The notes under the pieces are model-generated. The model searched no databases. It was not told the DNA's origin and saw nothing but the letters and a program-made list of their open reading frames with translations. Position numbers and translations under genes: made by a program. A DNA stretch of 37,803 nucleotides from Microcaldota archaeon (GTDB lineage: Archaea; Micrarchaeota; Micrarchaeia; Micrarchaeales; CABMGC01): assembly GCA_027365725.1 (NCBI GenBank), contig DAHXMA010000025.1:90611-128413 (forward strand), given 5' to 3'. This document shows positions 34,876-37,803 of this stretch, piece after piece. How positions within the stretch are numbered: the stretch's first letter is position 1; each line of letters starts with the position of its first letter.

Positions 34876-36174
34876 CTACCCTATCCTTTCCTTCCCGATG
34901 TAAGGCACGAGCGCCTTAGGCACAGTTATTGACCCGTCGTCGCAAAGATAGTTCTCAACTATTGCCACAAGCGTCCTGTTCGTGGCTATCGCAGTAGAGT
35001 TAAGCGTATGCGCATACCTCCTCTCCCCTCCCTCGTCATACTTTATGTCAAGCCTCATAGCTTGCCAGTCAGTGCAGTTCGAGCAGGACACCATCTCCCT
35101 GTATGCTCCCTGGAACGGCATATGCACCTCCAGGTCGTACTTCTTTGCCGCAACTGTGCCTATGTCCCCGGTGCAGATGCTCACTATCCTGTACGGGAGT
35201 TCGAGCTTCCTGTAAAGCTCCTCTGCGTTCGCGATCAATTCGTCGAAGAACCGCCACGAGTCCTGCGCCGAAAACACGAACTGCTCAACCTTATAGAACT
35301 GGTGCACCCTGAATATGCCTTTTGTATCCTTGCCGTGCGCCCCCGCCTCCCTTCTAAAGCACGGGCTAAATCCGATGTACTTCTTCGGCAGGTCCTTTGC
35401 GGAGAAGGTCTGGCCCGCGTGCATTGCAGCTATTGGGTGCTCGGAAGTTCCTATCATGAACAGCCCCTCCTCCACGCGCTCATTGGCGTTTGCATTCCTG
35501 GCATCGTCAGACTCGCCCGCCTTGTAAAGCATCTCCTGAAAATCGCCAAGCGCAGTCACCCCGCGGTAGTACTCGCGCCTCATCATCATTGGCGGAGCTA
35601 TCAGCGTATATCCCTTTCCTGTAAGTTCCTTTATGGCAAAGGCTATAAGCGCCTGCTCCAGCAGCGCAAGCTCGCCCTTCATGTAGAAGAACCGCGATCC
35701 TGAAACGCGCGAAGCCTGCTCTATGTCGAGCAGTCCCAGCCTTGTCAGCGCCTCTTCGTGGCCCATGGCTGGTTTGTCGCTGCGCACCTTGCCGAATTTT
35801 CGTACCTCTATATTCTCCGAATCGTCCTTTCCATACTGCACAGATTCGTGCAGTATGTTAGGCATATTCCACAGGATATCGTCAATCCTTTCCGAGTATG
35901 CTCCCAGCCTTGCATCCATCTCGTCTATTCTGCCCTTTATCCTGGCGAGCTCGTCCACCCTGTCCTTTCCAATTTCCTTTCCTTCCTTCTTCATCTCGGA
36001 TATCTCCAGGCTTCCTGCATTGCGCAGCTTCCTAAGCTCCTGCGACTCCAAGCTTATCCTTTTCGATTCCTCGTCAAGCTTGAGCAGCTCATCTATCGGA
36101 TAATCGCTCTTTCTCAATGCAAGCGACTTCCTTATCTCTTCAAGATGCTCCTTAACGTATTTTGCAGTTATCAT
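34876..36174 (-). CDS. serS: Seryl-tRNA synthetase
   Basis: Coiled-coil N-terminus, class II motif FSPCFRREAGAHGKDTKGIFRVHQFYKVEQF, EVSCSNCTDWQAMR-like, TLNSTAIATNRTLVAIVENY. Confidence 0.95.
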   Translation of the reverse strand: MITAKYVKEHLEEIRKSLALRKSDYPIDELLKLDEESKRISLESQELRKLRNAGSLEISEMKKEGKEIGKDRVDELARIKGRIDEMDARLGAYSERIDDILWNMPNILHESVQYGKDDSENIEVRKFGKVRSDKPAMGHEEALTRLGLLDIEQASRVSGSRFFYMKGELALLEQALIAFAIKELTGKGYTLIAPPMMMRREYYRGVTALGDFQEMLYKAGESDDARNANANERVEEGLFMIGTSEHPIAAMHAGQTFSAKDLPKKYIGFSPCFRREAGAHGKDTKGIFRVHQFYKVEQFVFSAQDSWRFFDELIANAEELYRKLELPYRIVSICTGDIGTVAAKKYDLEVHMPFQGAYREMVSCSNCTDWQAMRLDIKYDEGGERRYAHTLNSTAIATNRTLVAIVENYLCDDGSITVPKALVPYIGKERIG

Positions 36175-36244
36175 AAAGATACAATAAAGGCTATTGTGCC
36201 GCTGCAGATTTATATATGTTGATTCGGGTTATATTCCTGTACCT

Positions 36245-36330
36245 GCAGGGGTGGCAGAGCCTGGCCAAATGCGACGGGCTTAGGACCCGTTTCCTTTGTG
36301 GATGCGAGAGTTCAAATCTCTCCCCCTGCA
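36245..36330 (+). tRNA. tRNA-Leu(TAG), class II long variable arm
   Basis: Acceptor GCAGGGG/CCCCTGC, anticodon stem ACGGG-CTTAGGA-CCCGT, variable arm, T arm GAGAGTTCAAATCTCTC. Confidence 0.93.
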
Positions 36331-36355
36331 AATCCAATTTGTAGCGACAAGTGGG

Positions 36356-36402
36356 GTTCTGAAATCCCGGCCCTGCCCGCAAATTCGACTGTTTTTCAGA
36401 AC
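36356..36402. repeat. Inverted repeat GTTCTGAAA...TTTCAGAAC (9-bp arms, 29-nt loop) downstream of tRNA-Leu
   Basis: Arms at 36356-36364 and 36394-36402. Confidence 0.55.
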
Positions 36403-36652
36403 TGCCGCATTTCATCAGCTCAGTGCGACCGAACAGATTCCAAAAACTCTGCATTTTTATGCTTAATTATTGTGCCATAATATCTGTGTTCTGATAAGTG
36501 CTATGTTTGAGCTGGGATTGGGCTAGGCTGGAGCTTTGGCTTGATGGCAGCTTGGAGATAGGGCTAAAATTGCGTTCCGTATATTCGAACCCAACTGCTT
36601 TAAATATGGGCCTTGAACAGCATTAGATTCAGGTAGTTTAATGGATTCTGTT

Positions 36653-36666
36653 TGGAGGCACAGGGA
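36653..36666. repeat. Distal att-like copy of the tRNA-Val 3' end (TGGAGGCACAGGGA)
   Basis: Identical to 37664-37677, the last 14 nt of tRNA-Val on the complement. Confidence 0.85.
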
Positions 36667-36764
36667 TGTCACCTTAAATGCCCCTGTAAGACCTCGGTAT
36701 TTGCAGGTAAAAGCTGTTTTTAACGTCTGCTAGTATTTAATATCTTATAATCCTATAATCCGTT

Positions 36765-37388
36765 ATGGAAATCACATTCTCCAAAAGCAACATAACACTT
36801 AATCAGAAAGAAATTACGACTTTAGATAAATTAGTCATCAAGTTCATCGATGCAATGGGCGACGTTGACTATGTAATAGTTAGTGGCTACATAGCAATCT
36901 TTTTCGGAAGGATAAGGGGTACAGAAGATATAGATATACTACTAAACAAAATGGACATAAGACAGGTCGAAGAACTACACGTAAGGCTTCTCAAAAGTGG
37001 ATTTGAACCTGTCAACAACGTAGAAAATGCTAAAGATGCATACGATCTACTTTCTGAGGGATCGTCACTGCGATATGCTGAGAAAGGAACTTGGGCACCT
37101 AACTTCGAGCTAAAGTTCGTCAAGAAGCCTCTTGATAGGAATACCATGGACAACAAGATTAAAGTTACATTTAACTATAAATACTCAATGTATATATCTC
37201 CAATAGAACTGCAAGTCGCATTCAAGCTGTGGCTAGGCAGCGACAAGGATTACGAAGATGCGCGATACATTTATAATATTTTTAAGGCATATATTGATGT
37301 CAAAAAACTAAATGGATTTATATCCGAACTTCACGTAAAGAAAGAAATCGTAAAGAAAGTATTGGGCGAATTAAATGAAACAAAATAG
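36765..37388 (+). CDS. Nucleotidyltransferase-fold protein (AbiEii/MNT-like toxin-antitoxin family candidate)
   Basis: VIVSGYIAIFFGRIRGTEDIDILLNK (NTase G...DxD region) and ISPIELQVAFKLWLGSDKDYEDARYIYNIF, as in NTase-fold TA-type proteins. Confidence 0.65.
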   Translation: MEITFSKSNITLNQKEITTLDKLVIKFIDAMGDVDYVIVSGYIAIFFGRIRGTEDIDILLNKMDIRQVEELHVRLLKSGFEPVNNVENAKDAYDLLSEGSSLRYAEKGTWAPNFELKFVKKPLDRNTMDNKIKVTFNYKYSMYISPIELQVAFKLWLGSDKDYEDARYIYNIFKAYIDVKKLNGFISELHVKKEIVKKVLGELNETK

Positions 37389-37566
37389 CATTCTAACTGG
37401 CCTGAAGGAGGCAAAAGAGCTCAACCTTAGAAACAATTTGGAGTACATCGATGCATATTCCGATTATATAAAGAAGACGGACAACAAGACCTGGAGTAGA
37501 GGTCAGAAGAGATTTCTAGACATTTTGTACGCCAAAAAAAGAAGATCAAGGAAAATACAACTTTAA
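37375..37566 (+). CDS. 63-aa basic protein overlapping and probably coupled to the NTase gene
   Basis: ATG inside the 3' end of the NTase gene (14-nt overlap, +1 relative frame); Lys/Arg-rich C-terminus. Confidence 0.6.
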   Translation: MKQNSILTGLKEAKELNLRNNLEYIDAYSDYIKKTDNKTWSRGQKRFLDILYAKKRRSRKIQL

Positions 37567-37577
37567 TTCCATTAAAC

Positions 37578-37657
37578 TGAAAAGGTGGGGAATTGAACCC
37601 AACGATTTTTTCGAGGATATTAGTTTTTCTGCAAAAGCGTCTCTAGACGACAAATTC
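37578..37657 (-). pseudogene. Decayed tRNA (tRNA-Val-like) remnant
   Basis: Shares GGGAATTGAACCCA (37588-37601) and CTAGACGA (37643-37650), same order and strand, with tRNA-Val; degenerate acceptor GAATTTG/CCTTTTC; no proper anticodon arm. Confidence 0.6.
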
Positions 37658-37663
37658 TGGTAA

Positions 37664-37734
37664 TGGAGGCACAGGGAATTGAACCCAGGCCCGCGCCGTG
37701 TAAAGGCGCTATCCTACCACTAGACGATGCCTCC
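37664..37734 (-). tRNA. tRNA-Val(TAC)
   Basis: GGAGGCA/TGCCTCC acceptor, anticodon stem GCGCC-TTTACAC-GGCGC, T arm CTGGGTTCAATTCCCTG, discriminator A. Confidence 0.94.
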
Positions 37735-37743
37735 ATAATCCGC

Positions 37744-37803
37744 TTACTTAGAATGTCTCGCAAAGAATTTATTTATCCTGCCTATGGCTTCCTCAAGAAC
37801 GCT
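37744..37803 (-). CDS. C-terminal end of an unidentified CDS (…SVLEEAIGRINKFFARHSK*)
   Basis: Only open minus-strand frame at the window edge; too short to identify. Confidence 0.35.
   Translation of the reverse strand, partial: SVLEEAIGRINKFFARHSK

Follow-up and report, generated by a model that had tools for sequence, protein, structure and literature searches.

The 1,011-bp segment at positions 36653-37663, next to tRNA-Val(TAC) in a Micrarchaeota genome, is very probably a non-autonomous, tRNA-targeted toxin-antitoxin cassette that was moved by an integrase acting in trans. That the segment is a mobile cassette of this kind, targeted to a tRNA gene and not autonomous, is well supported. 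We establish its boundaries, its recurrence as a unit, empty sites in relatives, arrays, selection on its cargo, and larger elements and integrases at the same tRNA, which together bear out the original prediction of a tRNA-Val-targeted integrated element without an integrase. The segment is not unique but belongs to a broader class of cassettes that stand in tandem next to tRNA genes.

Results

The window, the whole stretch of 37,803 nucleotides that was analysed, forms the terminal part of contig C17 in a Micrarchaeota assembly of 646,837 bases in 30 contigs that is 77% complete. The cassette and its surroundings comprise the following features.

36543-36652, minus strand: first part of a separate element (arm family B) that lies beyond the cassette; found immediately after tRNA-Val in G011, G018, G040, G042 and G056
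36653-36666, minus strand: distal core, an exact duplicate of the tRNA 3' end; unit homology in six genomes starts exactly here
36667-36758, minus strand: conserved cassette end on the distal side, reaching the core; blastn matches in G003, G010, G009, G113 and G053
36765-37388, plus strand: nucleotidyltransferase (NTase) gene, 207 aa, predicted MenT-like toxin (ORF; AlphaFold2 and Foldseek; dN/dS)
37375-37566, plus strand: gene of the partner, 63 aa, putative antitoxin, with a 14-nt overlap with the NTase gene (ORF; conserved; parallel on a Natrinema plasmid)
37564-37663, minus strand: tRNA-side arm, family A; common to other NTase cassettes by blastn; adjoins tRNA-Val in G007 and G112
37587-37600, minus strand: T-arm-like motif GGGTTCAATTCCCC, about 65 nt past the core (GGTTCRA enrichment)
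37648-37653, minus strand: TTGTCG at +10 past the core (CGACAA/TTGTCG is enriched after cores)
37664-37677, minus strand: tRNA-proximal core, TCCCTGTGCCTCCA in the tRNA sense, an exact match to the tRNA's final 14 nt; unit homology in other genomes stops here
37664-37734, minus strand: tRNA-Val(TAC), intact, attB-like attachment site (Rfam RF00005, 60.1 bits; ARAGORN 37663-37735)

The sequence TGGAGGCACAGGGA is found at 36653-36666 and at 37664-37677 on one strand with 0 mismatches, the copy at 36653-36666 lying 1,011 bp downstream of the one in tRNA-Val. The 14-mer is the 3' end of this tRNA, beginning at the discriminator, and the segment has an intact tRNA at its near boundary and a direct repeat of the tRNA 3' end at its far boundary. 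The full 647-kb assembly contains exactly 2 copies and no third, and shuffled windows gave a mean of 0.33 matches to the 14-mer with up to 2 mismatches permitted. The repeat had been predicted at both positions, in the same orientation and in excess of chance, and all of this holds: a second exact 14-mer within 1 kb and in the correct orientation is not chance. Among tRNA-Val loci of the family the distal copies are most variable in their first three bases, which suggests CTGTGCCTCCA as the conserved core.

The 1,011-bp unit has a G+C content of 36% compared with 49.5% in the rest of the window, where the lowest value of any other 1-kb stretch is 43.8%, in keeping with the AT-richness originally described. 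Two overlapping ORFs, of 207 aa and 63 aa only, fill the cassette and both read toward tRNA-Val; the expected content of two genes and no integrase is what we find.

Segments that follow a core group into families of about 100 nt: family A lies beside the NTase cassette, family B opens larger elements, and family C occurs with Fic and other cargo. In G007 the family A arm adjoins tRNA-Val while the NTase gene sits elsewhere. The motif CGACAA/TTGTCG is present in 21 of 77 post-core segments compared with 122 of 3160 background windows (p about 1e-12), often at +14/15 or +10, and GGTTCRA in 14 of 77 compared with 35 of 3160. A T-arm-like motif (GGGTTCRAnTCC) was also seen 55-67 nt past the core in all three otherwise different arm families. 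The possibility that this motif marks a second tRNA or pseudo-tRNA in the arm was rejected, as Rfam predicts none there. Our guess is that the post-core motifs bind a recombinase or an accessory protein.

Positions 36000-37803 of the window were aligned to relatives. Homology to the NTase unit begins at 36653/36654 in G003, G009, G010, G021, G032 and G113 and stops at 37675-37680 in G009, G010 and G113. In the latter three genomes the NTase unit is the second or a later member of an array and is separated from tRNA-Val by other DNA that ends in a core-like site. The order in G010 is tRNA-Val, a 1.8-kb cassette (Fic and ParE), core, NTase cassette and core; the NTase cassette is fourth in the array of G009, and in G034 it comes after a Fic cassette of about 1.15 kb. 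No clear core copy was found on the stretches that hold four close NTase homologues (G007, G018, G071 and G086). G032 has its NTase cassette away from tRNA-Val (L063:8854-10451, contig C19), where two copies of a 171-bp repeat, 88% identical, enclose it and only one of its sides has a core.

A version of the segment at 87% identity or more is carried by 3 of the 11 same-genus genomes and is missing from the other 8, and close homologues (78-94% identical) span genera and two families of the order. The segment is therefore sporadic and not vertically inherited. For an empty-site test, tRNA-Val was joined in silico to the flank beyond the distal core and the product was aligned to relatives. Across the junction, the emptied sequence gave gapless alignments of 148 nt with G040, 163 nt with G056 and 150 nt with G011, and alignments containing few gaps with G042 and G018. 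In all five genomes the flank beyond the core directly follows tRNA-Val, providing the empty sites that insertion predicts. Vertical inheritance across the clade with no empty sites, named at the outset as the outcome contrary to an integrated element, is contradicted by these sites and by the presence of the segment in only 3 of 11 congeners.

Core copies with up to 2 mismatches were counted within 8 kb of 52 tRNA-Val loci of the family. Downstream of the tRNA and in its orientation there are 27 copies in 272 kb, compared with 1 in about 623 kb of control sequence (the 175 kb upstream hold 0 in the tRNA orientation, and the single copy is on the opposite strand), a count that is uninformative on the usage of other tRNAs since the loci were picked mostly by an exact match to the tRNA-Val 3' end. 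The arrays at tRNA-Val are tandem cassettes with one common type of recombination site, and the cargo of neighbouring arrays includes Fic, ParE and restriction-modification genes.

Cassettes were also identified at other tRNAs. In G065 a 775-bp segment encoding HicB and HicA separates tRNA-Glu from an NTase homologue, and a copy of the tRNA-Glu 3' end closes it; with this cassette removed, the sequence gave a gapless alignment over 775 of 775 nt with G063 and G083, at 87-88% identity. Similarly, G062 has a 667-bp segment that is flanked by tRNA-Leu(CAG) on one side and by a copy of that tRNA's 3' end on the other, beyond which an NTase pair follows. The cargo of this segment is a VapBC-like pair, a 93-aa ORF and a 144-aa ORF, the latter read as PIN by eye. 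Six loci in the second family of the order (L071-L075 and L077, in G075, G062, G083, G065, G063 and G078) have the NTase pair shortly downstream of tRNA-Glu, tRNA-Leu or tRNA-Arg, reading away from the tRNA and thus opposite to the orientation in the window. A scan of 32 tRNAs of the window's own genome for copies of their 3' ends returned, beyond tRNA-Val, one match with 2 mismatches and one exact match, the exact one being merely a neighbouring tRNA-Arg. The other is a copy of the tRNA-Gly 3' end 515 nt past tRNA-Gly(CCC) (L195), possibly another small cassette.

Neither ORF of the cassette matched any family in Pfam or NCBIfam or any entry in PADLOC, and the cassette has no integrase of its own. 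The own assembly, 77% complete, has no integrase at tRNA-Val either; its sole PF00589 gene is on another contig, beside tRNA-Gly, and a helper integrase encoded in this assembly was discarded as a candidate for that reason. Relatives carry PF00589 genes at tRNA-Val, and these are of two types. Type 1 proteins are about 400 aa long with a C-terminal zinc ribbon, and their genes start 34-63 nt past tRNA-Val in G002, G024, G030, G032 and G051. Relatives of type 1 start shortly after the tRNAs for Asn, His, Glu, Thr, Asp, Gly, Ser, Ala, Pro, Phe, Gln and Cys, among others. Across Micrarchaeota, genes for tyrosine recombinases of about 400 aa with a C-terminal zinc ribbon start between a few and about 80 nt after tRNA genes that cover many isotypes (G000:C20, L152:2209-3405; loci L089 and L098-L123). 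Type 2 proteins lack the zinc ribbon and lie within core-bounded segments of G001, G011, G035 and G040; they are 261-275 aa long in G011 and G040, and the G001 copy has an internal stop. In G011 and G040 the type 2 integrase is inside family B elements of about 6 kb. Both also hold DNA methylase genes, and the one in G040 encodes a Tsp45I-type restriction enzyme as well. The check suggested at the outset, for larger elements at the same tRNA-Val site, thus has a positive outcome.

These larger integrase-bearing elements are candidate helpers. The flank past the distal core is family B, and thus a family-B-type element was probably once at this site. With the own PF00589 gene at tRNA-Gly, and with G010 (93% complete) having two cassettes and 0 PF00589 hits, mobilisation in trans is the natural reading. 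This route, the recombinase that would act and a circular intermediate are inferred. No excised circle and no read across an excision junction came to light. A viral origin was considered and rejected: the NTase, the small integrase and the core-plus-arm patterns all had no match in viral contigs.

Several contigs break at tRNA genes. Two contigs of the own assembly, C13 and C27 (the ends L207 and L209), have exactly 141 identical nt in common, ending 1 nt past tRNA-Asp, and the contig of the window ends, at the window's right edge, exactly 141 nt from the first base past the core, 1 nt past tRNA-Val. C12 and C23 (the starts L198 and L200) have their first base 1 nt beyond tRNA-Gln and about 4 nt beyond tRNA-Glu(CTC), respectively, and contigs of G011, G021, G033, G034 and G113 end within 1-10 nt of the tRNA-Val core. 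The 141-nt overlaps and ends fit a k=141 assembly graph, with the assembler deduced from the overlap length, that branches where differing sequences follow one tRNA in a sample. Variation among cells of the source sample is thus supported indirectly, as are, through the contig ends at the core, excision and re-integration, and branching at any single contig may have other causes. The breaks suggest that tRNA-Asp, tRNA-Gln and tRNA-Glu(CTC) of this genome also carry variable insertions.

The cassette genes are under purifying selection, with dN/dS of 0.05-0.11 relative to their relatives, which indicates that they are in use. The original prediction of a non-autonomous element or a decayed remnant therefore stands in its first part, as no integrase lies inside, and fails in its second, since the low dN/dS and the intact recurrence of the unit exclude decay.

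The AlphaFold2 model of the NTase has a pLDDT of 92, and the ten best Foldseek hits with this model were all MenT1 or MenT3 (E 6e-7 to 5e-4, TM about 0.5-0.55). Against PF08843 (DUF1814/AbiEii) the best match among 18 NTase relatives was weak (E 0.083). Residues T53, D55, K154, D162 and D165 are invariant in 18 homologues; the catalytic T-x-D and the downstream K and D are present and were paired by eye with MenT1 T39, D41, K137 and D152. Haloarchaeal plasmids encode NTase homologues at 32-39% identity, and a Natrinema plasmid has a comparable small ORF in overlap with its NTase gene. The 63-aa partner, too, is conserved. Based on the modelled fold, the NTase is predicted to be a MenT-like toxin. 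The best functional reading is that the NTase and its 63-aa partner are probably a toxin-antitoxin pair, with putative toxicity and antitoxicity, and this reading fits the cargo of other cassettes, namely ParE, HicBA, VapBC-like pairs and Fic.

Discussion

In the mechanism that we propose, site-specific recombination would insert the cassette at the 3' end of tRNA-Val(TAC). The cassette plan would be core, an arm of about 100 nt, the MenT-like NTase toxin with its small putative antitoxin, a conserved end and a second core. The recombined stretch would be the end of the T-stem together with the acceptor, that is, the shared core CTGTGCCTCCA, so that every insertion would restore the tRNA and leave a distal copy to mark the junction. 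The most likely mover is the tyrosine recombinase of larger elements at the same site, acting in trans. Repeated insertion at one tRNA would give rise to tandem arrays, and the toxin-antitoxin cargo plausibly guards the cassettes against loss.

A first alternative is that homologous recombination between matching flanks exchanges whole tRNA-Val regions or arrays, and that the cassette itself is not acted on by any site-specific recombinase. The conservation of tRNA-Val and of the DNA around it is sufficient for such exchange, and the G032 cassette, off tRNA-Val, lies between copies of a 171-bp repeat. However, a core of 14 bp does not suffice for homologous recombination, and units nevertheless start and stop at cores; the empty site at tRNA-Glu is, moreover, exact and gapless. 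We consider this explanation unlikely for the cassette itself, although homologous recombination may contribute to the spread of already placed cassettes between strains.

It is more doubtful still that the segment is what a deletion left of a larger integrase-bearing element after loss of its middle, now immobile. Elements of 6 kb with an integrase and a DNA methylase do occupy the same tRNA in G011 and G040, and a fragment of such an element (arm B) directly follows the distal core. In contrast, the 1.01-kb core-to-core unit recurs in several genera at different array positions, and its genes are under strong purifying selection. Independent deletions would give differing endpoints, and thus the recurrence of one exact unit largely refutes this reading.

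A canonical integron, with IntI and attC sites, would also have small tandem cassettes that each close in a common recombination site and are rich in toxin-antitoxin genes. This reading is very improbable, since the sites here are copies of host tRNA 3' ends, the integrases adjoin many different tRNA genes, and reported archaeal integrons use folded attC sites and IntI (PMC9668308). That a chance 14-mer happens to stand beside an ordinary, vertically inherited gene pair is negligible and already refuted, as nothing was found in its favour and the two genomic copies, the 27:1 excess of cores on the downstream side of the family's tRNA-Val loci, the sporadic distribution and the empty sites all speak against it.

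The preferred reading, a cassette inserted at tRNA-Val by a recombinase supplied in trans, opens onto a broader one that we advance tentatively, as a serious possibility somewhat short of likely. Micrarchaeota may have an integron-like form of gene capture in which ordinary tRNA genes are the platform and copies of tRNA 3' ends are the sites. The integrases of other elements at the same tRNA would shuffle packets of up to about 1 kb that each carry a single toxin-antitoxin pair, one of them a MenT-like toxin family that would act on the tRNA acceptor end, and thus on the same part of the molecule whose coding sequence receives the insertion. It may be by coincidence that a toxin family acting on tRNA ends is carried by a cassette that inserts at the ends of tRNA genes. 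A dedicated system of integron type is conceivable, though unproven.

If the broader reading is true, tRNA 3' ends are platforms that collect single toxin-antitoxin or defence modules in reduced archaeal genomes, a route of gene gain and loss for very small, host-dependent archaea and an archaeal counterpart to integrons. It would also give a cause for the breaking of assemblies at tRNA genes. The hosts are tiny, uncultured Micrarchaeota. The excision junctions are short and predictable, which makes the reading testable. Searches for integrated elements usually begin from an integrase gene and thus miss integrase-free elements of about 1 kb.

The literature searched covers the integrated elements of Thaumarchaeota, the genomic islands of Mia14 and the integrons reported from archaea. 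In a search that mostly left aside subscription journals, we found no paper that joins Micrarchaeota with tRNA, integrase and cassette, which does not prove novelty. Tycheposons are tRNA-targeted cargo elements, and to our knowledge the known hitchers and tycheposons are all larger than the present cassette, with its roughly 0.8 kb of coding DNA. The p-dif modules of Acinetobacter plasmids are one- or two-gene modules, often toxin-antitoxin, between short recombination sites. Compared by description, they differ in using Xer/dif sites on plasmids whereas the cassettes here use tRNA genes on an archaeal chromosome. Hitcher (helper-dependent) elements resemble the cassette in that their machinery is supplied in trans (PMC11389934).

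Cryptic integrated elements of Thaumarchaeota have repeats from 8 bp upward with a median of 17 bp (PMC6563490), and they share with the cassette insertion at a tRNA 3' end, a direct repeat of that end at the far side and short repeats. Arrays of tyrosine-recombinase elements are likewise known among archaeal tRNA-targeted elements. Unlike these, the cassette here is about 1 kb, has no recombinase and carries only a toxin-antitoxin-like pair, and units of the same size repeat core to core in arrays across genera.

For the cargo, the closest solved folds are those of MenAT, which pairs an NTase with a small protein antitoxin in MenAT1 (PMC10435456, PMC11541572), and the Thr/Asp motif is conserved. 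In contrast, the NTase here is only about 15-17% identical to MenT1 with no Pfam match, and its partner is only a putative counterpart of MenA1.

Integron and CALIN arrays, including the archaeal ones (PMC9668308), are similar in having small tandem cassettes with one bounding site each, many toxin-antitoxin genes and often no recombinase. The present arrays, in contrast, use tRNA 3' ends as sites and a tRNA gene as the point of insertion, and the recombinases involved in the comparison are PF00589 proteins encoded next to tRNAs. Taken together, tRNA attachment sites, tandem elements, helper-dependent elements and toxin-antitoxin cargo are each already known; what would be new is the arraying of 0.7-1 kb units core to core in several genera of reduced archaea.
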